From an uncultured Burkholderiaceae bacterium (GTDB taxonomy: Bacteria > Pseudomonadota > Gammaproteobacteria > Burkholderiales > Burkholderiaceae): DNA of 21,486 bases. Position 1 is the stretch's first letter; every line of letters begins with the position of its first letter. The stretch lies in the NCBI GenBank assembly GCA_937871985.1, contig CALMPB010000418.1, positions 1-21,486 on the forward strand, given 5' to 3'. The notes below the pieces were generated by a model. The model saw only the letters and a list, made by a program, of their open reading frames with translations. It searched no databases and was not told the DNA's origin. The translations under genes and the position numbers were made by a program. This document shows positions 3,629 through 21,195 of this stretch, one piece after another.

Positions 3629-3681
3629 CTGCAAGAGGTTCTCGAGCTGGCCACCACGCCCAGTTCGAGAACCTCTTGCAG
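3629..3681 (-). repeat. Near-perfect 22-bp inverted repeat (hairpin) upstream of the amidohydrolase gene
   Basis: The arms at 3629-3650 and 3660-3681 match at 21 of 22 positions as reverse complements (core TGCAAGAGGTTCTCGA), separated by 9 bases. It lies 52-104 bases before the GTG start at 3577. No T-run follows on either strand, so it is not a standard intrinsic terminator. A TATAGT hexamer at 3695-3690 (minus strand) would place transcription start almost exactly at the hairpin base, but no good -35 goes with it. It could be a 5' mRNA-stabilising stem, an operator or a remnant of a mobile element's ends. Confidence 0.75.
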
Positions 3682-3931
3682 CAGGCCGAACTATAGGTGC
3701 TGCGGCAATGATTGGGGAGATGGCATTTCCGCCAAACCGATACTTCTATGACATCAATGAATCTGGATTTCAGAGCTTCTTGATATCAAGGGCGGGCACC
3801 CGCCTTGAATAGCCGGGCCGCGGCCACTTCGCCGCCCGAAGAAACTGGCGCGCAACCCATCCAGAACGTCATCGCAAAGCGCCTCGCGTCATCCGCAAAA
3901 TGCCCTCGAACCTAGGGAAATCCATAGCTTA

Positions 3932-3967
3932 AATCGTATTAACAATTATAGTAATCTGATTTTAAAT
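3932..3967 (+). promoter_or_regulatory. Probable promoter with overlapping dyad, upstream of the ThDP-enzyme operon
   Basis: In an AT-rich stretch unlike the surrounding DNA, TTAACA (3939-3944) and TTAAAT (3962-3967) are separated by 17 bases, a plausible sigma-70 -35/-10 pair. An imperfect dyad, AATCGTATTAA (3932-3942) against GTAATCTGATT (3951-3961), matches at 8 of 11 positions and covers the -35 hexamer, as expected for a repressor operator. The MarR protein encoded at the end of this operon is the obvious candidate ligand, but that is inference. The remainder of the 3682-4001 intergenic region has no supportable gene. Confidence 0.5.
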
Positions 3968-4001
3968 AAAAAAAATACTTTCATTTTTACAATACAGCAG
4001 C

Positions 4002-5717
4002 ATGCCACTCATGAAAGAATCCGCATTCGATTCAGTTGCTTACCGCCTTCTCGCCGGACTTGGCGCTCGAGGTATTTCTACTATTCTGGCCAATGCCGGG
4101 ACCGATTTTGCTCCCCTGATCGAGGCACGGGCCTTGGGCCGGCTTCGCGGAACAACGATGCCGCGCTTCGTCAATGTTCCTCATGAACAAACGGCCGTAT
4201 CCGTTGCGCATGGAGCGCACTTGGTCGACGGTTTGCCGCAGGTGGTCGGCGTTCACCATACGGTGGGCACGGCAAATACCGTCTCGGCAGTCATAACCGC
4301 CTCCCGCGAGCGCATCCCATTGATACTATTCGCCGGCCGCGCGCCTTCAACCGAACACGGAAGCATCGGCTCGCGCGATGTCGTCGTGCACTGGGGCACC
4401 GACACTTTCGACCAAGGGGGCATGCTGCGGGAATACACCAAATGGGACCACGAGTTGCGCGAAGGCCAATGCGTCGAGGACATTCTCGACCGCGCCATCG
4501 ACATCGCAATGACCGCTCCGCGCGGCCCCGTCTATCTCACCTTGCCGCGCGAAGTTCTCGCTGCCCAGCCCGCCTCGGCCGCCCCGGCCGGCAGACCCAG
4601 AACCGGGGCGACCGGCGCGCATCCGGCCAAAGCAGCCATAGATCAATTGGCTGACTGGCTGATAGCGGCGCAGCGCCCATTGATCATCACGTCGTCGGCG
4701 GGCCGCGACGCTGCCGTGCCGGAAGCACTCGCGGCCGTGGCTGACGCCGCGGCGGTGCCGGTCATCGAACACTACCCAAGGGTGGTCAACCTGCCCGGCA
4801 CGCACCCATTCCACGCCGGATTCAGCCCCGCCAACTTGATCGTCGATGCAGACCTGGTCATCGTGCTCGACTGCGAAGTGCCCTGGCTGCCCCGCGAATC
4901 CAAGCCCCCAGCAAACGCAAAGATCGTGCACATCGGAACAGACCCGCTATACAAGCGCATCCCGGTTCGCTCTTTTCCCGTCGATGCCGCTATTGTCAGC
5001 GAGACCGGCGCCGCGCTCGTCGCATTGCAAGAAGCGCTGAAGCAACGATGCACATCCGACACGCCAGCCATGACACAACGCCGCAAGCTGGCCCAGCAGC
5101 GCAAGCATCTCCAGCATTGCGCCGTGCAAAACAAGCGCCAAGACACGCCCGAACGCACGGCCATCGATCTTCCATGGCTCAGTGTCTGCCTACGTGACAT
5201 TGCCGACAGCCACACCATTGTGCTCAATGAGTACGGTCTGGATCTGAGCCTGATGGAATTCGCGGATACCGGAACCTTCTTCAGTGCCGGTATCTCGGGC
5301 GCTCTCGGCTGGACGATGGGCGCGGCGCTTGGCGTGCAAATGGCTGCTCCGCACAAGACCGCCATCGCGGTGGTAGGCGATGGGTCTTATATTTTCGGCA
5401 ACCCCGTTTCCTGCCATTACCTGGCCCAGGCGGAGCACTTGCCTATTCTCACCGTCGTTATCAACAACGGCGGCTATGCCGCGGTGCATCGCGCCGTCGA
5501 GGTCGTATATCCATCGGGCATCGCCCTCCAAGAACCAACGATGCCACTGGCCCGCTTCCATCCCCAGCCCGACTATGAAGGCGTGGCGGCCGCATGCGGC
5601 GCCCACGCGGAACGCGTCGAATCGCGCGAACAACTACCCGAACGGCTGCGCGCGGCATTGCATATCGTACGCACCCAACGCAGGCAAGTCCTGCTCAACG
5701 TAATCTGCCAACCCTGA
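4002..5717 (+). CDS. ThDP-dependent enzyme of the acetolactate synthase/benzoylformate decarboxylase superfamily
   Basis: The 571 residues have the usual Pyr, central and PP domain order. Glu62 in VPHEQTAVSVAHG is the conserved glutamate that activates the thiamine diphosphate aminopyrimidine. The central Rossmann-like domain runs from about 205 to 345. The PP domain carries the cofactor/Mg motif GDGSY (459-463) followed about 27 residues later by VVINNGGY (486-492). Family members decarboxylate or ligate 2-keto acids or cleave C-C or C-S bonds; the active-site substrate residues cannot be assigned here. It is not the biosynthetic acetolactate synthase by context: there is no ilvH or ilvC, and a RidA gene and an ABC importer follow at short spacing. 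ATG 4002 is the first start; ATG 4011 is an alternative and neither has a strong Shine-Dalgarno. A thi-box riboswitch was looked for upstream and not seen. Confidence 0.88.
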   Translation: MPLMKESAFDSVAYRLLAGLGARGISTILANAGTDFAPLIEARALGRLRGTTMPRFVNVPHEQTAVSVAHGAHLVDGLPQVVGVHHTVGTANTVSAVITASRERIPLILFAGRAPSTEHGSIGSRDVVVHWGTDTFDQGGMLREYTKWDHELREGQCVEDILDRAIDIAMTAPRGPVYLTLPREVLAAQPASAAPAGRPRTGATGAHPAKAAIDQLADWLIAAQRPLIITSSAGRDAAVPEALAAVADAAAVPVIEHYPRVVNLPGTHPFHAGFSPANLIVDADLVIVLDCEVPWLPRESKPPANAKIVHIGTDPLYKRIPVRSFPVDAAIVSETGAALVALQEALKQRCTSDTPAMTQRRKLAQQRKHLQHCAVQNKRQDTPERTAIDLPWLSVCLRDIADSHTIVLNEYGLDLSLMEFADTGTFFSAGISGALGWTMGAALGVQMAAPHKTAIAVVGDGSYIFGNPVSCHYLAQAEHLPILTVVINNGGYAAVHRAVEVVYPSGIALQEPTMPLARFHPQPDYEGVAAACGAHAERVESREQLPERLRAALHIVRTQRRQVLLNVICQP

Positions 5718-5734
5718 GCCCACAAGGAGCCGCC

Positions 5735-6094
5735 ATGTCCGCAATCGTACGCCAGCACAAAAACACCCGCATGAGCCAGATCGTCATCCACAATGGTGTT
5801 GCTTATCTGTCGGGACAGGTGTGTCCGGACTTTCTGCAAAGCAGCCCTCCCATCGAGGAGCAGACGAGCAGCGTGCTCGCCTGCATCGAAAAACTGCTGG
5901 CCGATGCGGGGACCAGCAAGTCGAAACTCTTGACGGCGCAGATATGGCTGGCCGACGTTGCCGAGTTCGACAGAATGAACGCCGTCTGGGAAGCCTGGAT
6001 CGATCCCGCAAATCCACCCGCTCGCGCCACTTGCGGCGTCACATTGGGGCATCCCAACGTTCGTGTGGAAATCACCGTCAGCGCCGCGATTTGA
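5735..6094 (+). CDS. RidA (YjgF/YER057c/UK114) family protein
   Basis: ATG 5735 is preceded at a good distance by AAGGAG (5724-5729) and sits 17 bases after the ThDP-enzyme stop, so the 119-residue product is the right one although the frame is open further upstream. 119 residues is a normal RidA length. The signature region PPARATCGV (95-102) contains Arg97, matching the arginine that binds the substrate carboxylate in active imine/enamine deaminases, and Glu112 in VRVEITVSA matches the second key residue. RidA proteins form trimers and hydrolyse reactive enamine/imine intermediates. Next to a ThDP lyase and an importer, it probably deals with an unstable intermediate from the imported compound. 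The exact subfamily was not determined. Confidence 0.9.
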   Translation: MSAIVRQHKNTRMSQIVIHNGVAYLSGQVCPDFLQSSPPIEEQTSSVLACIEKLLADAGTSKSKLLTAQIWLADVAEFDRMNAVWEAWIDPANPPARATCGVTLGHPNVRVEITVSAAI

Positions 6095-6135
6095 ACTGAC
6101 CTGCCATCCCTATTTCTACCTACTGGAGAATGCAC

Positions 6136-7128
6136 ATGCATGCCCTCAAATGGATTCTGCTGTTTGCAACGCTTATCGGCTTCGTTCCAGCCGCGCCGGC
6201 CCAGTCGCTCCCCACCATCAAGGTTGCCTTCAACGTGCCCGGCGACGAGGCCAAGCTGCTGATGCGCGCGCACCCCGAATACTTCCCCGCCATCGGCCGC
6301 GACTACCAAATAAGCTGGATGCAGTTGCAGGGAACAGCCACGGTGTCGCAGGCATTGATCGCGGGCACAGCGGATTGCGGCGTCAACGCGCCGCTGACTC
6401 TCGCCCAGGCCATCGCGGGCGCGGGACTCAAACCAATACTCATCGGCGCGATCATCGGTGAATCGCCGAAATCCTTCACCAGCTATTGGGCGGTCAAGGA
6501 AGACTCCCCGATACGGACGGTGAAGGATCTGAAAGGCAAAACGGTGGCGGTAAACACCATCGGTTCGCAACTGGATGCGTTTACGCGCATATGGCTGAAG
6601 CAGAACGGCCTCGACCCCAAGCACGATGTGAACATCGCCGAAGTCCCGTTTCCCCTGAGCGAAGCAGCGCTGCGCCAGAGAAGGGTGGACGCAATCGTCC
6701 TGGTGCAACCTTTTGCCACAAGAGCGGAAAAAACCGGCGGATTGCGCAAACTGGGCGCATTGCGCGACGTGCAGCCCAATCTGTTGAATCTGGTCGAAGC
6801 ATGCCGCCAGGATTTCGTCGATGCCCATCCAAAGGTAGCGGCTCAATATGCCCGGGACTTTGCCGCGGCGTCCAAACGCTTCTCGGAGGACCACGCCGCC
6901 TCCATCGATCTCCTGTCGGGCATCCTGAAAATGCCCAAGCCCGCCCTGGAAAGCTTCATGTTCACATCCCACGACTACCAGCGCTATCCCGACGGAGCCC
7001 TCGATGTCCAGGTCGTGCAGAAAAGCTTCGACCTCTTCCACGACAATGGATTGCTGGCGAAAAAACTCGACGCGAATGCGTATATCCGCCCCGGAATCTC
7101 GCTGGTCGCCCATCAGGACTCGAAATGA
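6136..7128 (+). CDS. ABC transporter periplasmic binding protein, NitT/TauT (SsuA/NMT1-like) type
   Basis: Two ATGs are possible, at 6130 and 6136. GGAG at 6125-6128 is too close to the first and 7 bases from the second, so 6136 is preferred (330 residues). Residues 1-23 form a Sec signal peptide (charged MHALK, hydrophobic WILLFATLIGFV, then APAQS). The mature part shows the family pattern: a strand IKVAFNVPG, a 'GTADCGVNAPLTLAQA' loop, and then VKDLKGKTVAVNTIGSQLD, where 'D-LKGK-VAV' is typical of sulfonate/nitrate/HMP-pyrimidine binding proteins. Its stop overlaps the ATPase start, so it belongs to the same importer. The ligand is unknown; the NMT1-like fold does not by itself mean thiamine precursors. 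Confidence 0.88.
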   Translation: MHALKWILLFATLIGFVPAAPAQSLPTIKVAFNVPGDEAKLLMRAHPEYFPAIGRDYQISWMQLQGTATVSQALIAGTADCGVNAPLTLAQAIAGAGLKPILIGAIIGESPKSFTSYWAVKEDSPIRTVKDLKGKTVAVNTIGSQLDAFTRIWLKQNGLDPKHDVNIAEVPFPLSEAALRQRRVDAIVLVQPFATRAEKTGGLRKLGALRDVQPNLLNLVEACRQDFVDAHPKVAAQYARDFAAASKRFSEDHAASIDLLSGILKMPKPALESFMFTSHDYQRYPDGALDVQVVQKSFDLFHDNGLLAKKLDANAYIRPGISLVAHQDSK

Positions 7129-7925
7129 CAAGCGCCCGCCCCCAAGCCTCCCAGGACGCGGTGCTTGAGCTCGATGGCATCGGCAAGCACTTCGACAGCC
7201 CGGCATCTACGTTCGTTGCCCTGGACGGCATCAACATGCAGGTGCAGCCAGGAGAATTCGTATCCATACTGGGCCCCAGCGGCTGTGGCAAGAGCACGCT
7301 GTTGTACATGATAGGAGGCTTCATCCCGCCAAGCTCGGGCGCCATCCGCGCGGCGGGAGCTCCGGTCGTCGGGCCCGGACGCGATCGCGGCATCGTCTTT
7401 CAGGACGCGGCCTTGTTTCCATGGTTGACCGTCGCCGCCAATATCGGCTATGGCCTGCGCGAAGGCGGCATGAGTCGCCGCGACGTAACACGAACCGTCG
7501 CCACCATGCTGTCGCTCGTGCACCTGGATGGCTTCGCCGATTTCTATCCCGGCCAGCTATCCGGCGGTATGCGCCAACGTGTAGCGATCGCGCGCACATT
7601 AGCCTACGACCCAGCCATTCTGCTCATGGACGAGCCGTTCGGCGCGCTTGACGCCTATACGCGCACGGTGCTGCAGGACGAACTGCTCTCCATCCAGGAT
7701 CACCAAAAAAAGACCGTCGTCTTTGTGACGCACAGTGTGGACGAAGCCGTCTATCTTTCGGATCGCGTGGTGGTGCTGAACCGTTCGCCCGGGCGGATCC
7801 ACGACGAGGTCCAGATAAATCTGCCGCGCCCGCGAATCCGCCAGGAACTGCTCCGATGCGATGCCTATCAAGAACATGTGATATCGCTGGGCAAAACCAT
7901 GATGCACATGCACTCCCATGAGTAG
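7125..7925 (+). CDS. ABC transporter ATP-binding protein, NitT/TauT type
   Basis: ATG 7125 overlaps the preceding stop as ATGA, giving 266 residues; the frame is open much further upstream but that part is only the shadow of the binding-protein gene. All ATPase elements are intact: Walker A GPSGCGKST (50-58), Q-loop in VFQDAALFPW, signature LSGGMRQRVAIAR, Walker B ILLMDEPFGALD and switch His in VTHSVDEA. The Phe-Pro-Trp after the Q-loop is common in nitrate/taurine/sulfonate importers (SsuB/TauB/NrtD). It energises import through the two permeases encoded just downstream. Confidence 0.93.
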   Translation: MTSARPQASQDAVLELDGIGKHFDSPASTFVALDGINMQVQPGEFVSILGPSGCGKSTLLYMIGGFIPPSSGAIRAAGAPVVGPGRDRGIVFQDAALFPWLTVAANIGYGLREGGMSRRDVTRTVATMLSLVHLDGFADFYPGQLSGGMRQRVAIARTLAYDPAILLMDEPFGALDAYTRTVLQDELLSIQDHQKKTVVFVTHSVDEAVYLSDRVVVLNRSPGRIHDEVQINLPRPRIRQELLRCDAYQEHVISLGKTMMHMHSHE

Positions 7926-8691
7926 CTCGATCAAGCACCGTCCGTGGGCGGCAAGGGCGCTGTACTACCTGGCAACATTGGCCGCCCTGCTGCTCATCTG
8001 GCAATGCCTGGCCAATGCGGCTCAGGCGGACTACCTGCCAGGCCCGATCAAGGTGCTTCCCCGGCTCGTAGAGCTCATGGGTGAAGCCGCGCTATGGAGT
8101 GCGCTGGCATCGAGCTTGTTGCGCCTGGCCATCAGCTTCATCCTGGCGCTGGTCGGCGGCGTCGCGCTCGGCCTGGCCATTGGCCGGATTCCAGTGCTGC
8201 GCGCCTTGGTCGACCCTATTCTTTCATTGAGCTACCCCATTCCCAAGGCGGCGATATTGCCCATTGTGATGCTCTGGTTCGGCGCCGGCGACATCTCCCA
8301 GATCTTCGTCATCGCCACAACCGCGACGCTGCCCGTGATCTACCACACCGCGGACGGAGCAAGCCGCGTCAACGAACAATTGCTATGGGCTTCCGCCTCG
8401 ATGGGCAGCAAGCCGCTGACGCGCCTTTGGCGCATAGTCCTGCCGGCCACGCTGCCGGAAATCGCCGCTGGCAGCCGCACGGCCATCGTCATGGGCTTGA
8501 TCGTAATGGTAACGGCCGAGATGATCTCCCGCACGAACGGCATAGGCAGCCTGCTCTTCGTGCATTTCGATATGGGGCAAAACACAGACATGTATGCCCT
8601 GATCCTCCTGCTCGGCATAGTAGGGCTTGCCCTGGACAACCTACTCGACTGGCCGTTTCGCCGCCTGACGCACTGGACAATGAAACGATGA
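7918..8691 (+). CDS. ABC transporter permease 1, NitT/TauT type
   Basis: The start overlaps the ATPase gene by 8 bases (7918-7925), indicating translational coupling. The 257-residue protein has about six membrane segments and a clear BPD_transp_1 EAA loop (LLWASASMGSKPLTRLWRIV, followed by LPATLPEI) that docks on the ATPase. It is similar in layout to, but clearly different in sequence from, the next gene, so the importer is likely built from two non-identical membrane subunits instead of a homodimer. Confidence 0.92.
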   Translation: MSSSIKHRPWAARALYYLATLAALLLIWQCLANAAQADYLPGPIKVLPRLVELMGEAALWSALASSLLRLAISFILALVGGVALGLAIGRIPVLRALVDPILSLSYPIPKAAILPIVMLWFGAGDISQIFVIATTATLPVIYHTADGASRVNEQLLWASASMGSKPLTRLWRIVLPATLPEIAAGSRTAIVMGLIVMVTAEMISRTNGIGSLLFVHFDMGQNTDMYALILLLGIVGLALDNLLDWPFRRLTHWTMKR

Positions 8692-9443
8692 ATACGCCTA
8701 CGACTTCCCCGCCGCGCTGGCTCAGCCTGGTTCCCATTCTCGTCCTGCTGATCGCCTGGGAAGCTTTTTGCCGGCTCGGATCCATTTCGCCGGGCGTGCT
8801 TCCTCCCCCGTCGTCGGTGGCAATGCACGCCGCCGCGTTCTTTACAGATCCACATTCCCTGGTTCAATTCGGCATTACCATGCGGCGGCTGGCAGCGGGC
8901 CTGATCCTGGCCGTGATTGTGGGAGTCATGCTCGGTATTTGCGCATCGCTGTTTCGCTGGGCCACCGAGGTGCTCGAAATCCTGATCGGCATTTTGGCGC
9001 CGCTGCCCAAGATCGCCATTTACCCCGCCCTGCTGCTGACCCTGGGCTTTGGGGACGCCTCGAAAGTCGCCCTGGTCACGATAGACGCCATGTTTCCCAT
9101 CACGATCGCCACCTTCCAGGCGGTGCGGCTGATAGACAAAAAACTGCTGTGGTCGGCCGCCGCCATGGGCACCTCGCGAATCCATGCCCTGCACAAGGTC
9201 GTACTGCCGGCTTGCCTGCCATCCATCATTACCGGCGTACGCGTGGGCTCGGTCATCGGCTGCATCGTGGTGCTGCTGGCGGAAATGCTGGCATCCACCG
9301 ACGGCCTCGGGCACATGCTGGTGACAGCCTCACGCAGTTTTCGCACGGCGGACATGTTCGTCCCCATCGTCATCATGTCACTCATCGGCTTTTCACTGGA
9401 CAAGGCGCTGGGACGCGGCGCGCGCGCCGCCGCGCACCGCTGA
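8688..9443 (+). CDS. ABC transporter permease 2, NitT/TauT type
   Basis: ATG 8688 overlaps the previous stop as ATGA; this gives 251 residues, and the much longer open frame upstream is out of register with the permease fold. The first helix (LSLVPILVLLIAWEAF) follows a short cytoplasmic N-terminus, then come about five more membrane segments and the EAA loop (LLWSAAAMGTSRIHALHKVV, then LPACLPSII). It is the second membrane subunit of the importer. The C-terminus is a short basic and alanine-rich tail. Confidence 0.92.
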   Translation: MNTPTTSPPRWLSLVPILVLLIAWEAFCRLGSISPGVLPPPSSVAMHAAAFFTDPHSLVQFGITMRRLAAGLILAVIVGVMLGICASLFRWATEVLEILIGILAPLPKIAIYPALLLTLGFGDASKVALVTIDAMFPITIATFQAVRLIDKKLLWSAAAMGTSRIHALHKVVLPACLPSIITGVRVGSVIGCIVVLLAEMLASTDGLGHMLVTASRSFRTADMFVPIVIMSLIGFSLDKALGRGARAAAHR

Positions 9444-9474
9444 AACCGCTCCCAACTCATGGCACAATGCAAAC

Positions 9475-10056
9475 ATGAAAACCGTCGAGCCGACTGAGCC
9501 CCCCGTCAAAAAACGCCGAACGCGAAAAAAGGAGCTCCCGTTTTCCGTACCCGCCTACCCCCGGCCAGACGAACAGCTGGTCGAGAAGATGAGCGCGCAG
9601 ATCTTCAACGGACATTTCTTCGACGAATACCTCGCGGCGTTGCTGGCTCGCGCGAGCGCGGCCGTTTCCGCCGAATTCAACGAGGACGTGACTCGAACGG
9701 GACTGCCGATACTCCACTGGCGTGTATTGGCCACGCTGTACGACGCGAATGAAATGCCCATGTCGAAAATCGCGGAGCTGACACTGATTCCCCTGCCCAC
9801 GCTAACCCGGCTGGTCCGGCGCCTCGAACTGGCCGGCAGCGTACGTCTCGATAAAGACCCTCAAGATCGGCGTACGACGCGCGTTCATATCGAGCCAGCC
9901 GGCCGAGAAAAGGTGGGAGGCCTGGTCGCCATGGCCAAGGAACGCCAGCGTGTCCTGCTCGAAGGCGTCGAAAACGCCGAAGCCCTGAAAACATCATTGC
10001 GCCATTTGATCGCATTCTGCGCCGCCCGTCGCCGCAGGCATAAAGTCATTACCTAA
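9475..10056 (+). CDS. MarR-family transcriptional regulator
   Basis: The 193-residue protein carries a basic N-terminal extension (KKRRTRKK, 12-19) before a MarR winged-helix domain: ILHWRVLATLYDANEMPMSKIAEL (79-102), recognition helix PLPTLTRLVRRLELAG (106-121) and a wing with the family hallmark DPQDRRTTRVHIEPAG (128-143). Long helices on both sides would form the dimer interface. It starts 31 bases after the permease gene on the same strand, so it is probably the last gene of the importer operon and may control that operon, the next cluster, or both, in response to the imported compound or its product. The Shine-Dalgarno is weak. The cluster of arginines at the C-terminus (AARRRRHK) is unusual for MarR proteins. 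Confidence 0.9.
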   Translation: MKTVEPTEPPVKKRRTRKKELPFSVPAYPRPDEQLVEKMSAQIFNGHFFDEYLAALLARASAAVSAEFNEDVTRTGLPILHWRVLATLYDANEMPMSKIAELTLIPLPTLTRLVRRLELAGSVRLDKDPQDRRTTRVHIEPAGREKVGGLVAMAKERQRVLLEGVENAEALKTSLRHLIAFCAARRRRHKVIT

Positions 10057-10147: not shown

Positions 10148-10183
10148 CAAAACGCATATGCAAATACCCTTATATTCGTTTTG
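10148..10183. promoter_or_regulatory. Inverted repeat, candidate operator between the MarR gene and the AhpD-like gene
   Basis: CAAAACGCATAT (10148-10159) and ATATTCGTTTTG (10172-10183) are reverse complements at 11 of 12 positions, separated by 12 bases, so the half-site centres are 24 bases apart (about two helical turns, same face). It lies in the AT-rich part of the 10057-10245 gap, just before a possible promoter. This is a plausible operator for the neighbouring MarR protein, or for another regulator with widely spaced half-sites. Confidence 0.5.
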
Positions 10184-10245: not shown

Positions 10246-10788
10246 ATGAGCCGCCTCGCTATACAAACCATCGAAACAGCCCCCGCCGAAGCCAAAGAAC
10301 GCCTCGAAAACGTCAAGAAAAGCAATGGTTTCATCCCCAATCTCATTGGCGTGCTCGCCAACGCCCCTACCGCCCTCGAAACCTACCAGGTGGTCGGCGC
10401 CATCAACGGCCGCAACTCCCTTTCGGCCGCCGAGCGCGAAGTGGTCCAGATCACCGCCGCCGCCAATAATGGCTGTGGCTTCTGTGTGGCCGGCCACACC
10501 GCCATCGCCCGCAAAAAGCTGGCCATGCCCGAGGACATCATCGAGGCGCTGCGCGGCACCAAGGCGCTCAGCGAGCCTAAGCTCAATCAACTGGCCCGCT
10601 TCACGCTGGCCGTCATGGAATCCAAGGGCCAGGTCGCCGACGACCAGCTCAACGATTTCCTGGCCGCCGGCTACAACCAGCAGCAGGCCCTTGAAGTCGT
10701 CCTGGGCGTCAGCCTGGCCACGTTGTGCAATTACGCCAACAACCTGGCCAAAACGCCCATCAACCCCGAACTCCAACCCTTCGCCTGA
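10246..10788 (+). CDS. AhpD-like/carboxymuconolactone decarboxylase family protein
   Basis: The 180-residue protein is all-helical by appearance and contains the AhpD-type redox motif CGFCVAGH (Cys77, Cys80, His84) after LSAAEREVVQITAAANNG, exactly as in alkylhydroperoxidase-D-like/peroxidase-related members of the CMD superfamily. Members with this CxxC plus His act as disulfide-linked peroxidase or thiol reductase subunits, unlike the true gamma-carboxymuconolactone decarboxylases, which lack the pair. ATG 10246 has a weak AAGAGA upstream. It opens a plus-strand cluster with a flavoprotein and an ABC importer and may remove a peroxide or reactive product of that pathway. The substrate is unknown. 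Confidence 0.88.
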   Translation: MSRLAIQTIETAPAEAKERLENVKKSNGFIPNLIGVLANAPTALETYQVVGAINGRNSLSAAEREVVQITAAANNGCGFCVAGHTAIARKKLAMPEDIIEALRGTKALSEPKLNQLARFTLAVMESKGQVADDQLNDFLAAGYNQQQALEVVLGVSLATLCNYANNLAKTPINPELQPFA

Positions 10789-10817
10789 TTTTTCCCGTCA
10801 GGCCGCCCTCAAACGAA

Positions 10818-10835
10818 GCGCCCCCTTGGGGGCGC
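10818..10835. terminator. Strong GC hairpin between the AhpD-like and flavoprotein genes
   Basis: GCGCCCCC and GGGGGCGC form a perfect 8-bp stem with a TT spacer; with a minimum loop about 7 pairs remain. An outer partial pairing of GCCGCCCTC (10802-10810) with GAGGGGC (10844-10850) is possible, and TTTT follows at 10851-10854. It may be an intercistronic attenuator or an intrinsic terminator, or one copy of a dispersed palindromic element; no second copy was noticed in this window. Confidence 0.45.
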
Positions 10836-10880
10836 AGCAAAACGAGGGGCTTTTGTTACCGCATCACAAGGACCACAGCC

Positions 10881-12047
10881 GTGAGCCAAGCCGATTCCGC
10901 CACCCCATTCTTTCAGGCCATCGCCGAGCAGATCCGAACCGAACTGGCTCCGATCACTCAGGCCATTGACCAGAAAGGCCTGTACCCCGGCGAATTCATG
11001 CATCATCTGGGGGCTCTGGGCGGGTTCGGCGCGGCGCTGTCCGCCGCGGAAGGCGGCTCGGGCCTGAGCCTGGCGGAACAAATCGAGATCACCACGCAAG
11101 TGGGGCGCGAATGCGGCTCCACCGCATTCCTGGTGTGGTGCCAGTCCAGTTGCGGCTGGTACCTGAAACACTCGCCCAACACCCCGGTGCGCGAACGCTA
11201 TCTGGAACGGGTGGCGCGGGGCGAACTGCTGGCCGGCACGGGCATGTCCAATGCCGTCAAGCATTTGGCCGGCATCGAAAAAATCCATCTGCGCGCGCAG
11301 CGCGAAGACGGCGGCTACGTCGTCAATGGTTCGCTGCCCTGGGTTTCCAATGTCGGCGACGGCCATCTGGCCATCGTGGCCGCTTCGGTCGAGGACGGCG
11401 GCTACATCATGTTTGCGGTTCCCAGCACCTCGGAAGGCCTGGAAACCAGGGCATGCCTGGAGTTCTCGGGCCTGGAGGGAACCCAGACCCTGAATCTGCG
11501 TTTTCGCAACGTCCATGTTCCGGACGACGATGTCCTGGCGCATCCCGCGCAGTTCGCCGCCTACGTCAAGCGCATCAAGCCCGGCTTCGTGCTGGGCCAA
11601 ACGGGCATGGGCTTCGGCATTGTCGAAGGCTGCCTGGCCATCATGCGCGAAAGCAATGCCAGCACCGGCCACGTCAATATCTTCCTCGACGACCAGGAAG
11701 CCGATCTTGCCGCGCAACTGGCCGCCTTGAAGACGCAGGCGGCAGTTCTGGCCCGGCAGGCCCAGGCAGGCGGCATCCCCATCCTGCCCGTGCTGAAACT
11801 GCGCGCCGCCGTCAGCGAACTCACGCTGAAGGCCGCCAACTCCGCTGTCCTGCATGCCGGCGCCAAAGGCTACCTCATGCTGCACCCGGCGCAACGGCGC
11901 CTGCGCGAAGCGGTGTTCGTGGCCATCGTCACCCCGGCGCTCAAGCATCTGCGCAAGGAAATCCACGACATCGAACAGGCCGCCAACGAGCAGAACGATG
12001 CGGGACACCAGGCGCAAAGCACACGTTACTCATTGTTTGCCAACTAA
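10881..12047 (+). CDS. Acyl-CoA-dehydrogenase-fold flavoprotein, divergent
   Basis: GTG 10881 is chosen because AAGGA (10868-10872) lies 8 bases upstream and the residues before it look non-coding; this gives 388 residues. The order matches the acyl-CoA dehydrogenase superfamily: an N-terminal helical domain (GEFMHHLGALGGFGAALSAA, then EGGSGLSL), a middle beta domain (GTGMSNAVKHLAG, VNGSLPWVSN, FRNVHVPDDDVL) and a C-terminal helical bundle ending RRLREAVFVAIVTPALKHL. The usual C-terminal YEGT-type segment carrying the catalytic Glu of many dehydrogenases is not apparent, and no CoA ligase, hydratase or thiolase is nearby. It may therefore be a flavin-dependent oxygenase/oxidase of the DszC/SfnC kind acting on a small imported compound rather than a beta-oxidation enzyme. 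The function is inferred. Confidence 0.82.
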   Translation: MSQADSATPFFQAIAEQIRTELAPITQAIDQKGLYPGEFMHHLGALGGFGAALSAAEGGSGLSLAEQIEITTQVGRECGSTAFLVWCQSSCGWYLKHSPNTPVRERYLERVARGELLAGTGMSNAVKHLAGIEKIHLRAQREDGGYVVNGSLPWVSNVGDGHLAIVAASVEDGGYIMFAVPSTSEGLETRACLEFSGLEGTQTLNLRFRNVHVPDDDVLAHPAQFAAYVKRIKPGFVLGQTGMGFGIVEGCLAIMRESNASTGHVNIFLDDQEADLAAQLAALKTQAAVLARQAQAGGIPILPVLKLRAAVSELTLKAANSAVLHAGAKGYLMLHPAQRRLREAVFVAIVTPALKHLRKEIHDIEQAANEQNDAGHQAQSTRYSLFAN

Positions 12048-12075
12048 ATAAGATCCATACAGGTAAGAATTTTCC

Positions 12076-12915
12076 ATGACGACACCGACGCCCGCGGGCG
12101 ACAACATCGTCCTGGGCGCGCAAGGCATCGAATTACGCTATTCGCGCCCGAACCAGCCGCCCAACACCGTGTTGCGCGACTTCTCGCTGCAACTGGCCAA
12201 AGGTGAAATCGTCGCCCTGCTCGGCCCCAGCGGGGTCGGCAAGTCGTCCCTGCTGCGCGTGCTGGCGGGCCTGCAGGCCGCCAGCGAAGGCACGGTGCAC
12301 GTCCATGGTGAACGCCTGCACGGCCCCCACCCCCGCCTGAGCTTCGTGTTCCAGGACGCCGCCCTGCTGCCGTGGCTGAACCTGCAGGAGAACGTCGGTT
12401 TCGGCCTGGACTTCAAGCACCAGCCCGTCATTTCCAAGGCCGAAAAACAGGCCAGGATCAACGCGGCCATTGCCGACGTCGACCTGCTGGGCGCGCAAGA
12501 ACGCTATCCCTCGGAGCTGTCTGGCGGCATGGCGCAGCGCACCGCGCTGGCCCGCAGCCTGGCCCGCCAGCCCGAAATCCTGCTGCTGGACGAACCCTTC
12601 AGCGCCCTGGACGAAATCACCCGTGCGGACATGCAAGCCCTGCTCCTGCGCATCACCGCCAAATACGACACCTCGGCCATCCTGGTTACGCACGACATCG
12701 ATGAAGCGCTGACCGTGGCCGACCGCATCCTGCTGATCGGCCATGCCCCGGGGCGCCTCATCGGAGAATGGCGAGTCGAGGACGCCCATCCGCGTGACAC
12801 CACCACTCCGGAAATCACCGGCATCCGCGTCCAGATCATGCAGGCGCTGCGCGACGCGCGGAACACTGCACACCACACCGAACAACCCGCTTACCAGCAG
12901 GCCCTGAATTCGTAG
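12076..12915 (+). CDS. ABC transporter ATP-binding protein, NitT/TauT type (second system)
   Basis: The 279-residue ATPase has Walker A GPSGVGKSS (50-58), Q-loop Gln93 in VFQDAALLPW, signature LSGGMAQR (148-155), Walker B ILLLDEPFSALD (168-179) and switch His206 in LVTHDIDEA. The leucine-proline-tryptophan after the Q-loop and the 'GRLIGEW' tail are usual for nitrate/sulfonate/taurine importers. It starts 28 bases after the flavoprotein gene with AGGTAAG upstream, so it is probably co-transcribed with it. Its partners are the binding protein and the permease downstream; it is not the same protein as the first system's ATPase. Confidence 0.93.
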   Translation: MTTPTPAGDNIVLGAQGIELRYSRPNQPPNTVLRDFSLQLAKGEIVALLGPSGVGKSSLLRVLAGLQAASEGTVHVHGERLHGPHPRLSFVFQDAALLPWLNLQENVGFGLDFKHQPVISKAEKQARINAAIADVDLLGAQERYPSELSGGMAQRTALARSLARQPEILLLDEPFSALDEITRADMQALLLRITAKYDTSAILVTHDIDEALTVADRILLIGHAPGRLIGEWRVEDAHPRDTTTPEITGIRVQIMQALRDARNTAHHTEQPAYQQALNS

Positions 12916-12925
12916 GAAGACCACA

Positions 12926-14131
12926 ATGACCAAACCCGCAGACTCCTTCGGCTCCGTGAAAGCCCGCCGGCAATTCCTGAAGCTGTCCACCATGTTCACC
13001 GCCATGGGCGCCCTGCCGCTGCTGCAGATGCATAATGCGGCGCGCGCCGCCGAACCCGACGCGCCCCTGCGCATCGGCTACCTGCCCATCACCGACGCCA
13101 CGCCGCTGCTGGTGGCCCACCACAACAACCTGTTCCAGAACCAGGGCCTCAACGTCGACAAGCCCCGCATGTTCCGCAGTTGGGCCCAATTGGTCGAGGC
13201 GTTTCTTTCCGGCCAGGTCAACGCCGTGCACCTGCTGTCCCCCATGACGGTCTGGGCCCGCTACGGCAGCCAGTCCAAGGCCAAGGTCGTCGCCTGGAAC
13301 CACATGTCGGGCTCCGCGCTGACCGTGCTGCCGCACATCAACGACCTGCAGGATCTGGGCGGCACGACTGTTGCCATCCCGTTCTGGTATTCGCTGCACA
13401 ACATCGTGCTGCAGCACCTGTTCAAGAGCAAGGGCATCGAAGCCATCAGCGACGGCACGCCCACGGCCAAGCAGGTCAAGCTGGTCGTCATGGCGCCCTC
13501 CGACATGGTGCCGGCGCTGGCCAACAAGCAGATCGCGGGCTACATCGTGGCCGAGCCGTTCAATGCTTCGGCCGAGGTTCTCAAGATCGGCAAGATCCTG
13601 CGCTTTACCGGCGACGTCTGGAAGGACCACGCCTGCTGTGTCGTGTTGATGCACGAGCAAGACCTGGAGCAGCGCCCCGAATGGAGCCAGAAGGTCGTGA
13701 ACGGCATCGTCCAGGCCCAAGCCTGGATTCTGGATCACCGCAAGGAAACCGCCCAGATTCTATCCAAGGAAAACGCGCAGCACTACACGCCGCACTCCTA
13801 CGAGTCCCTGGCGCGGGTTCTGGAACCCGAGCTCATGAACACCGCGCTGTACGAATCGACCGGCGCCATCGTGCACGATGGCTGGAAGGAAAAACGCATC
13901 GACTTCCAGCCCTACCCCTTCCCCAGCTACACCGAAGAACTCATCCGCAAGCTCAAGACCACGCTGGTGCTGGGCAAGAACGATTTCCTGGGCAAGCTCG
14001 ACCCCGCTTTCGTCGCTGGCGACCTGGTGGACGACCGCTACGTCAAGAAAGCCATCCAGGGCGTGGGCGGCATGGCCAAGTTCGGTCTGCCCGAGTCTTA
14101 TGAACGCAAGGAAACCATCAGCAGCACCTAA
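12926..14131 (+). CDS. ABC transporter binding protein, NrtA/SsuA-like, with twin-arginine signal
   Basis: The start has AGGAAG 8 bases upstream and lies 10 bases after the ATPase gene. The N-terminus KARRQFLKLSTMF (12-24) fits the Tat consensus RRxFLK, followed by a hydrophobic stretch and a likely AxA-type cleavage near residue 41 (AARA-AEP). The mature domain begins LRIGYLPITDATPLLVAHHN, the pattern of NrtA/CmpA/SsuA-type binding proteins, and continues with AQLVEAFLSGQVNAVHL and IVAEPFNAS. At 401 residues it is longer than a usual SsuA and nearer to NrtA-like proteins. Tat export suggests folding in the cytoplasm, possibly with a bound cofactor or ligand. The ligand is unknown. Confidence 0.88.
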   Translation: MTKPADSFGSVKARRQFLKLSTMFTAMGALPLLQMHNAARAAEPDAPLRIGYLPITDATPLLVAHHNNLFQNQGLNVDKPRMFRSWAQLVEAFLSGQVNAVHLLSPMTVWARYGSQSKAKVVAWNHMSGSALTVLPHINDLQDLGGTTVAIPFWYSLHNIVLQHLFKSKGIEAISDGTPTAKQVKLVVMAPSDMVPALANKQIAGYIVAEPFNASAEVLKIGKILRFTGDVWKDHACCVVLMHEQDLEQRPEWSQKVVNGIVQAQAWILDHRKETAQILSKENAQHYTPHSYESLARVLEPELMNTALYESTGAIVHDGWKEKRIDFQPYPFPSYTEELIRKLKTTLVLGKNDFLGKLDPAFVAGDLVDDRYVKKAIQGVGGMAKFGLPESYERKETISST

Positions 14132-14138
14132 CCCGGAC

Positions 14139-14158
14139 GGCGGGCGCCACCGCTCGCC
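14139..14158 (+). other. Intercistronic hairpin between binding-protein and permease genes
   Basis: GGCGGGC (14139-14145) and GCTCGCC (14152-14158) form a 7-bp RNA stem with one G-U pair and a 6-base loop in the 45-base gap. Hairpins in this position are known in other importers (malE-malF) to protect the upstream mRNA so that the binding protein is made in excess. No T-run follows, so it is not an intrinsic terminator. Confidence 0.45.
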
Positions 14159-14176
14159 GCCCATCGAAGCACTATC

Positions 14177-14956
14177 ATGAACAGAAGTTTAAGAACCGCG
14201 AATTTGAGTTCCAGGCTGGCGCTGAGCATCGCAGGCCTGGTCGCCCTGGTCGTGCTGTGGGGAATCGGAACGTACTGGCTGAAGGGCAGCATCGAAATGG
14301 CCCGTCTGCTAAGCCCCAGCCCCACCTTCCATAGCCTGTACCATCTGCTGGCCGACAATCAGCTCACCATACACACCATGATGAGCATGAAGCGCGTCCT
14401 GGTCGGATTGGGGCTGGCCCTGGTAATGGGCATCCCCATCGGGCTGGCCATCGGCTCGTCGCGCGCGCTGGAAAACAGCACCAGCAGCGCCTTCCAGTTC
14501 CTGCGCATGATTTCCCCGCTGTCGTGGATGCCCATCGCCGTCATGGTGTTCGGCATCGGCGACGCGCCCATCTATTTCCTGCTTACCTTCGCCGCCATCT
14601 GGCCCATCATCCTGAACACGGCAGCGGGCGTGCGCCAGCTCAACCCCAGGTGGCTGATGCTGGCGAAAAGCCTTAGCGCCACGCGCAGCGAAGTGCTGTT
14701 CAGAATCGTCCTGCCCGGCATACTGGGGCATATTCTTACCGGCGTGCGCCTGGCCATCGGCATCATCTGGATCGTGCTGGTGCCCTGCGAAATGCTGGGC
14801 GTCAGCTCGGGCCTGGGCTATTTCATTCTGGACACCCGCGACCGCCTGGCCTATTCGGAACTCATGGCCGTCATCGTCCTGATCGGGGCGCTGGGCTATT
14901 TGCTGGACGTCATCGCGCAAAAGCTCTACCAATACTGGACCCACACCCCAGGTTAA
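14177..14956 (+). CDS. ABC transporter permease, NitT/TauT type (second system)
   Basis: The 259-residue protein has a first helix at about 15-36 (LALSIAGLVALVVLWGIGTY) and about five further membrane segments. The EAA loop reads PRWLMLAKSLSATRSEVLFR followed by IVLPGILGHIL, with the conserved Gly region altered (SLSATRSE where many have a-x-G). It is the only permease of this system and so probably forms a homodimer. ATG 14177 lies 45 bases after the binding-protein gene and has no clear Shine-Dalgarno. It is the last gene of the cluster; the following 182-base gap holds a small stem (15046-15059) and a possible miaB promoter. Confidence 0.91.
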   Translation: MNRSLRTANLSSRLALSIAGLVALVVLWGIGTYWLKGSIEMARLLSPSPTFHSLYHLLADNQLTIHTMMSMKRVLVGLGLALVMGIPIGLAIGSSRALENSTSSAFQFLRMISPLSWMPIAVMVFGIGDAPIYFLLTFAAIWPIILNTAAGVRQLNPRWLMLAKSLSATRSEVLFRIVLPGILGHILTGVRLAIGIIWIVLVPCEMLGVSSGLGYFILDTRDRLAYSELMAVIVLIGALGYLLDVIAQKLYQYWTHTPG

Positions 14957-20857: not shown

Positions 20858-20933
<76 letters not shown>

Positions 20934-20978
20934 GTAAAGCAGTAAGTAGTACAGTAGTCGAAGCAGTTGCAAGTTCCG

Positions 20979-21054
20979 GTCCCCTTCGTCTAGAGGCCTA
21001 GGACATCACCCTTTCACGGTGAGTACAGGGGTTCGAATCCCCTAGGGGACGCCA
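20979..21054 (+). tRNA. tRNA-Glu (anticodon TTC)
   Basis: Acceptor GTCCCCT pairs with AGGGGAC, anticodon stem TCACC/GGTGA encloses loop CTTTCAC (anticodon TTC, 21013-21015), the T arm has GGTTCGAATCC, discriminator G and an encoded CCA. It lies 45 bases after tRNA-Ala in the same transcript. Confidence 0.98.
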
Positions 21055-21118
21055 GTTCTTCTGGCAGCAGTATGTAGTGATGCAGTTGAAGTGACAATGT
21101 AGTTGAGTACGCCGCTGC

Positions 21119-21195
21119 GGAGCGGTAGTTCAGTTGGTTAGAATACCGGCCTGTCACGCCGGGGGTCGCGGGTTCGAGTCCCGTCCGCTCCGCCA
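21119..21195 (+). tRNA. tRNA-Asp (anticodon GTC)
   Basis: Acceptor GGAGCGG pairs with CCGCTCC, anticodon stem CCGGC/GCCGG encloses loop CTGTCAC (anticodon GTC, 21153-21155), T arm GGTTCGAGTCC, discriminator G and encoded CCA. It is the last tRNA of the operon and is followed 16 bases later by a strong terminator stem. The 3' half is a possible integration site for a genomic island. Confidence 0.98.

Follow-up and report, generated by a model that had tools for sequence, protein, structure and literature searches.

What a thiamine diphosphate (ThDP)-dependent enzyme and an imine hydrolase of the RidA type are doing at the head of the genes for an ATP-binding cassette (ABC) importer is the question raised by a block of seven genes in contig CALMPB010000418.1 of an uncultured Burkholderiaceae bacterium (assembly GCA_937871985.1); the whole stretch analysed, 21,486 nucleotides long, is referred to here as the window. 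An earlier inspection of the letters alone, called below the sequence-only reading, had described the block as one transcription unit encoding a ThDP enzyme, RidA, a NitT/TauT-type importer and a MarR regulator, and had suggested that an amino- or imino-bearing compound is imported and cleaved inside the cell. From the analysis presented here we conclude that the block, conserved and so far uncharacterised, represents a variant of the familiar catabolic operon with an ABC importer, and that its enzyme pair is the unusual element.

All seven open reading frames were confirmed, running head to tail on one strand between 4002 and 10056, and their spacing and overlaps (Table 1) bear out the description as a block resembling a single transcription unit; the gap of 35 nt between the genes for RidA and for the periplasmic substrate-binding protein (SBP), omitted in the sequence-only reading, is added here. 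Each of the seven products scores above its own Pfam cut-off, the domains being a three-domain ThDP enzyme, Ribonuc_L-PSP (RidA), an NMT1-type SBP, an ABC ATPase, two BPD_transp_1 permeases and MarR (PF01047, 40.8 bits against a cut-off of 24.6), and the earlier family calls agree with both Pfam and NCBIfam. The ThDP gene may start at the ATG at 4011 and not at 4002, because its homologues start near the second methionine.

The comparison family was that of genome G208, whose MiaB is the closest to the one of the window (81%) in a sample of 250 genomes from one order. The gene group is rare: a relative of the ThDP protein at E 1e-165 or better was found in one of the 268 genomes of this family (G369, 76%), and a search across the order (399 genomes) again returned G369 as the sole carrier. 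In G369 all seven genes are present in unchanged order, with protein identities, from the ThDP enzyme to MarR, of 76, 84, 77, 82, 77, 74 and 83%, and with flanks unlike those of the window (tgt-, secD- and secF-type genes upstream, and LysR-, 3HCDH- and ECH-type genes downstream). A blastn comparison of the window with G369 gives one alignment, from 3911 to 10028 at 74% identity, which ends within marR. Because the order recurs in a differing neighbourhood, at 74-84% protein identity, the seven-gene arrangement is beyond chance, and the earlier proposal that the ThDP and importer genes belong together survives the comparison. The window's flanking MFS, amidohydrolase, CMD and second SBP genes gave no tblastn match around the G369 block, where the weaker matches consisted of stretches of the ABC-ATPase type and, about 5 kb downstream, one that is ACAD-like at 26%. 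The amidohydrolase and MFS genes on the left and the CMD-ACAD-importer genes on the right were considered as parts of the pathway and rejected on this tblastn result.

Table 1. Features of the seven-gene block and of the DNA that precedes it (positions in the window)
Feature	Position	Strand	Families and remarks
Conserved upstream block, probable promoter/operator region	3911..3995	+	85% identity to G369; function inferred
ThDP-dependent enzyme, NCBIfam PRK08327, benzoylformate-decarboxylase-like	4002..5717	+	PF02776, PF00205, PF02775, NF006203
RidA-type imine hydrolase, Rid2-like	5735..6094	+	PF01042; closest solved chains PSPTO_0102, PA5083; 17 nt after the ThDP gene
Periplasmic SBP, SsuA/TauA-like	6130..7128	+	NMT1-type (Pfam)
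ABC ATPase	7125..7925	+	PF00005; ATGA overlap with the SBP gene (7125-7128)
ABC permease 1	7918..8691	+	PF00528; 8-nt overlap with the ATPase gene (7918-7925)
ABC permease 2	8688..9443	+	PF00528; ATGA overlap with the permease 1 gene (8688-8691)
MarR-family regulator	9475..10056	+	PF01047; 83% identical gene at the equivalent place in G369; 31 nt after the permease 2 gene

The similarity to G369 includes the DNA ahead of the ThDP gene. The upstream block is identical to the stretch before the G369 operon in 73 of 86 columns, with a blastn E value of 3e-23 against that single stretch and a best ungapped score of 227 against a maximum of 86 among 200 shuffles; 5' of it, the DNA shows only short, chance-like matches to G369. 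The upstream block is probably a promoter together with an operator. A 17-mer taken from it has a single exact match in the 268 family genomes, located before the G369 operon, and four matches with one mismatch elsewhere in them (one match for the reversed control); the exact match alone is meaningful, and no regulon was found with this 17-mer in those genomes. A consensus scan gave no sigma-70 site (2.4 expected) and seven terminator-like sites (5.9 expected). Two inverted repeats were also observed: one at 3629-3681, with 22-nt arms that are 95% complementary and 9 nt apart, lies where the divergent amidohydrolase reading frame begins, and the other, at 10148-10183, with 12-nt arms that are 92% complementary, precedes the CMD operon described below and is a possible operator.

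Further relatives were sought with the individual proteins. The ThDP protein search (best 120 of 3987 matches listed) gave 15 relatives (P0002-P0016) at 52-92% identity, followed by a drop to 48%; the names of their sources include Burkholderiaceae, Pigmentiphaga, Pusillimonas and Nevskiaceae. With the SBP there were 20 entries at 63-100%, that of the window included, and then seven at 43-44%, and with RidA (best 120 of 464 matches listed) there were 23 at 62-99%, beyond which the matches lie mostly at or below 59%, with one partial match at 72%. Equal size of the longest contig per cluster in the three lists was taken as a proxy for linkage. By this proxy, 11 of the 15 close ThDP relatives match close RidA entries (8) and/or close SBP entries (6), which suggests that in these 11 the ThDP gene shares a contig with a RidA and/or an SBP gene, and points in the same direction as the intact block of G369. 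As controls, none of 104 more distant ThDP entries had a size in common with the close SBP or RidA entries, and none of 96 more distant RidA entries with the close ThDP ones. P0003 is the G369 gene, the linkage of which was read directly and is missed by the proxy; P0002, P0013 and P0015 have no match under it. The ThDP-RidA pair may extend further than the importer, because P0016 (52%) matches a RidA entry and no close SBP.

Beyond these relatives, a scan of the genome collection for the ThDP protein matched 224 stretches, of which 145 were confirmed and the best 80 were kept, none above 45% identity. Many of these wider loci are short, contig ends restricting their flanks; in none of the 80 did single-sequence phmmer at 1e-4, a search that a divergent MarR could escape, detect a relative of RidA or MarR, and an SBP-like match was present in 10. 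The seven-gene set as a general feature of PRK08327 was rejected on these grounds. The recurrent neighbours in the wider loci (TctC, Amidohydro_2, UbiD, AMP-binding, SDR, FAA hydrolase, class II aldolase and luciferase-like) suggest catabolism and are not transferable to the window. In four Rhizobiales loci (L042, L043, L058 and L067) an importer lies about 6 kb ahead of a wider-family ThDP gene, and genes of the SDR, class II aldolase, FAA hydrolase and TctC types are found between or beside the two. Among plasmids, 763 records have similarity to some part of the operon DNA, none of them over 80% of the operon, and a search with the ThDP protein at 1e-80 gave 29 records, every one below 60% identity.

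The ThDP protein is a member of NF006203 (PRK08327, thiamine pyrophosphate-requiring protein), an NCBIfam family to which no reaction is assigned; it reaches 630.5 bits there, where 456 is required. For the other 24 NCBIfam families shown, of 51, it lies far below the cut-offs. Its nearest solved chains are benzoylformate decarboxylases (BFD), both by single sequence and by profile (144.3 bits), and BFD is also the nearest by Foldseek. By VIA-align (50 rows shown), glyoxylate carboligase, acetolactate synthase, pyruvate oxidase and BFD differ by no more than about 1 Z unit (32.2 to 31.0), and because the scores of these four enzyme types are nearly equal the fold alone cannot choose the ThDP class. 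The predicted model, with a mean pLDDT of 76, is of poor quality in the stretches 87-92 and 114-146. At the level of residues, E62 aligns with the ThDP-activating Glu47 of BFD and H85 with its catalytic His70 (BFD numbering); both are invariant in 20 of 20 aligned sequences and in all 80 wider loci, and the ThDP/metal motif (GDG at 459-461 and NN at 488-489) is kept in the same 20. Other marks of BFD are missing, given that Thr34 occupies the place of Ser26, that no histidine aligns with His281 in a region where the alignment is loose and a nearby W295 is invariant, and that the BFD equivalog NF005485 gives 156.9 bits against a cut-off of 493.

A further trait sets the close relatives of this enzyme apart. 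Positions 86, 87 and 133, the first two of which adjoin H85 in the sequence, are H, T and T in all 16 close ThDP sequences, and for 10 of the 16 there is evidence of RidA (the window, G369 and eight by the linkage proxy). The next four relatives (P0017-P0020) have N, N and Q; in the 80 wider loci, with no RidA match nearby, position 86 is V (72) or T (8) and never H, position 87 is N in 56, and position 133 is Q in all 80 and never T. The change at these three residues goes together with RidA.

Rid proteins have been studied mostly as housekeeping or accessory imine hydrolases. The solved chain closest to the RidA of the window is PSPTO_0102 (92.5 bits), followed by PA5083 (68.8), and the chains named RidA (chloroplastic), YabJ and UK114 score 36.1 bits or less, with some chains of unnamed subfamily in between. 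The protein carries Arg97 and Glu112, the residues of imine hydrolases; their correspondence to the catalytic residues is presumed by analogy with E. coli RidA. As far as the excerpts of the Rid literature go, PSPTO_0102 and PA5083 are both classed as Rid2, and iminoarginine is deaminated by Rid2 and Rid3 proteins (PMC5619798); the Arg and Glu typical of imine hydrolases are retained in Rid1 to Rid3, with the Tyr being variable in Rid2 (PMC4433059); and the Rid2 protein DadY serves alanine catabolism together with DadA, which releases the imine (PMC9714295). In the same excerpts, the substrates of characterised Rid2 proteins are 2-imino acids produced by amino-acid dehydrogenases or oxidases (PMC5619798, PMC9714295, PMC4433059). 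The RidA of the window is Rid2-like and a predicted imine hydrolase. G369 has in addition a second RidA gene after marR (L085:15695-16054), 71% identical to that of the window, with DNA similarity that extends to some bases 5' of its start.

The importer, with its NMT1-type SBP, ATPase and permeases, is of the NitT/TauT type. The nearest solved proteins to the SBP by sequence are SsuA and TauA, and its relatives bind sulfonates and taurine, but the scores for TIGR01728 (112.8 against a cut-off of 163.5) and TIGR01729 (41 against 304.25) do not place it in the sulfonate or taurine families. In an alignment read by hand, at about 20% identity, E111 and E223 lie no more than two positions from the amine-binding Glu106 and Asp205 of TauA. 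SsuA binds HEPES, MES and MOPS, according to an excerpt of PMC3839906.

Relatives of the SBP at E 1e-45 or better are present in 30 of the 268 family genomes, at 32 places: the G369 operon (77%) and 31 others at 36-43%. Eleven of these 31 were examined, nine of them being longer regions; all nine preserve the order SBP-ATPase-permease-permease, and a MarR gene follows the importer in seven. In nine of the 11 places, Octopine_DH (PF02317) and PRK08269-type 3-hydroxyacyl-CoA dehydrogenase genes lie upstream, and the other two (L101 and L105) have an IlvD/EDD dehydratase beside the importer. Seven loci (L097-L100 and L102-L104) repeat an operon made of Octopine_DH, the PRK08269-type dehydrogenase, a two-permease NitT importer and MarR, and L101 also has 3-hydroxyisobutyrate-dehydrogenase-like and AP_endonuc_2 genes. 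G369 holds both types of importer operon; a tblastn search with both dehydrogenases at 1e-6 found neither in the window. The importer and the regulator named in the sequence-only reading are confirmed; what it had missed is that importers followed by MarR recur in related genomes in company with other enzymes. A tree of 35 SBPs sets the branch that holds the window and the G369 operon (20 rows) apart from all others, with support of 100/100. A recent swap of enzymes on a common importer was rejected, since the ThDP-linked SBPs and the others are on separate long, fully supported branches; therefore the common layout is old, and the operon types parted long ago.

The observed gene set, its conservation as a block, the family assignments and the retained catalytic residues are the starting point for a scheme that we favour tentatively, at somewhat less than an even chance: an inducible catabolic operon for the import of an amine-bearing acid, followed by imine hydrolysis by the Rid2-like protein and cleavage of the 2-oxo acid by the ThDP enzyme. 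The SBP, the ATPase and a channel of two permeases would take up a small compound that is anionic and probably carries an amine (an amino acid, an amino-sulfonate or a relative), and the imine-forming step would be encoded outside the operon, by an amino-acid dehydrogenase, an oxidase or a lyase dependent on pyridoxal phosphate (PLP). The Rid2-like protein would then hydrolyse the derived 2-imino acid to a 2-oxo acid and ammonia, and the ThDP enzyme would decarboxylate or cleave the 2-oxo acid non-oxidatively to an aldehyde that enters general metabolism; these two steps rest on the known chemistry of the Rid2 and ThDP families. The conserved upstream block would be the site through which MarR regulates the operon. 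The substrate class, the order of the steps, decarboxylation in preference to another ThDP reaction, and the regulation are the parts that we infer. It is possible, though on balance we doubt it, that Rid2 and a co-evolved ThDP subfamily (H86, T87 and T133) act in series on one imported compound, with the ThDP enzyme dependent on Rid2; were this so, Rid2 would be an obligatory pathway enzyme and not a means of damage control.

The order of events could also be the reverse, the imported compound being itself the ThDP substrate and its cleavage freeing an enamine or imine that the Rid2-like protein hydrolyses. The block encodes no dehydrogenase or PLP enzyme by Pfam, the ThDP and RidA genes adjoin in G369 with a shared contig inferred in eight more relatives, and the altered residues 86, 87 and 133 of the close subfamily would suit an unusual substrate; against this, no ThDP enzyme is known to supply a Rid protein with an enamine, and we regard this order as rather unlikely. 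The Rid2 proteins characterised in the excerpts cited act on 2-imino acids from amino-acid dehydrogenases and oxidases dependent on flavin adenine dinucleotide (FAD) (PMC5619798, PMC9714295), and for this reason the first step is no less likely to be taken by a dehydrogenase or oxidase with its gene outside the block. Of the suggestion that an amino or imino compound is imported and cleaved inside the cell, what stands is the gene set, kept as a block; that the imported compound is the ThDP substrate is not established. A special case of the scheme that we favour is an amino-sulfonate route, in which cysteate or a similar compound would be imported, its imino form would give sulfopyruvate, and the ThDP enzyme would convert this into sulfoacetaldehyde, or analogues of these would be involved. 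SsuA and TauA as the nearest solved binding proteins, the sulfonic buffers bound by SsuA and the position of E111 and E223 fit this route, yet identity in the alignment is about 20%, the SBP scores fall short of the cut-offs for sulfonate and taurine proteins, the block has no sulfonatase or sulfoacetaldehyde acetyltransferase, and the related importers adjoin octopine-dehydrogenase-type or IlvD/EDD genes and not sulfonate genes, so that we consider it improbable.

The near equality of the structural scores is relevant to another explanation, under which the ThDP enzyme would act as a carboligase or synthase, similar to glyoxylate carboligase, and RidA would merely clear a damaging by-product. 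Here the lead of the BFDs by sequence profile and the invariant equivalent of His70, a residue that carboligases and acetolactate synthases are not known to have, argue otherwise, and we give this explanation a low probability. Finally, the importer, the ThDP enzyme and RidA could belong to unrelated pathways and be neighbours by chance, as the 80 wider loci, with no RidA match and few SBP-like ones, might indicate; this is largely contradicted by the recurrence of the block and its upstream region in order in G369 despite different flanks, and by the proxy linkage in further relatives, which make it very improbable.

The claim that the set matches no described pathway agrees with the open-licence PubMed Central (PMC) literature, in which we found no description of the ThDP/RidA/importer/MarR set, no mention of PRK08327, and no description of an octopine- or nopaline-dehydrogenase importer operon; the excerpts of PMC5320631, PMC10949508 and PMC9007349 do not treat the gene set. 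The operon is a defined, testable system in which an imine could be an obligatory intermediate, and it gives a first functional lead on part of the large PRK08327 family of ThDP enzymes, as well as a lead on a branch of SsuA-like importers without assigned substrates. Elsewhere in the window, a second conserved operon (10246-14956) encodes CMD peroxidase-like, acyl-CoA-dehydrogenase-like, ABC ATPase, NMT1-type binding and permease proteins; its five genes are found in the same order in G402 (L111; 51, 30, 59, 63 and 61% identity), a few kb from an octopine-dehydrogenase-type importer operon. A cluster of tRNA-Ala, tRNA-Glu and tRNA-Asp lies at 20858-21195.

The system resembles several known ones in part. 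With BFD the ThDP enzyme shares the three ThDP domains and the residues Glu62 and His85 at the positions of Glu47 and His70, but it is about 22% identical, has Thr34 for Ser26 and no counterpart of His281, and scores below the equivalog cut-off. The importer is like SsuABC and TauABC in the fold of the binding protein and in the NitT/TauT-type ATPase and permease families; in contrast to these, it has two different permease genes, scores below the cut-offs and is accompanied by no desulfonating enzyme in the block. In P. aeruginosa, DadA-DadY and DauA with its Rid2 protein offer the same kind of partner and the conversion of an imino acid into a 2-oxo acid, as described in the excerpts of PMC9714295 and PMC5619798, whereas the Rid2-like protein of the window has no adjoining dehydrogenase and stands instead with a ThDP enzyme and an importer. 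The octopine-dehydrogenase/3-hydroxyacyl-CoA-dehydrogenase operons of the same family share the order SBP-ATPase-permease-permease-MarR and an SBP about 40% identical, and differ in that PF02317 and PRK08269-type dehydrogenases take the place that the ThDP enzyme and RidA have in the window.

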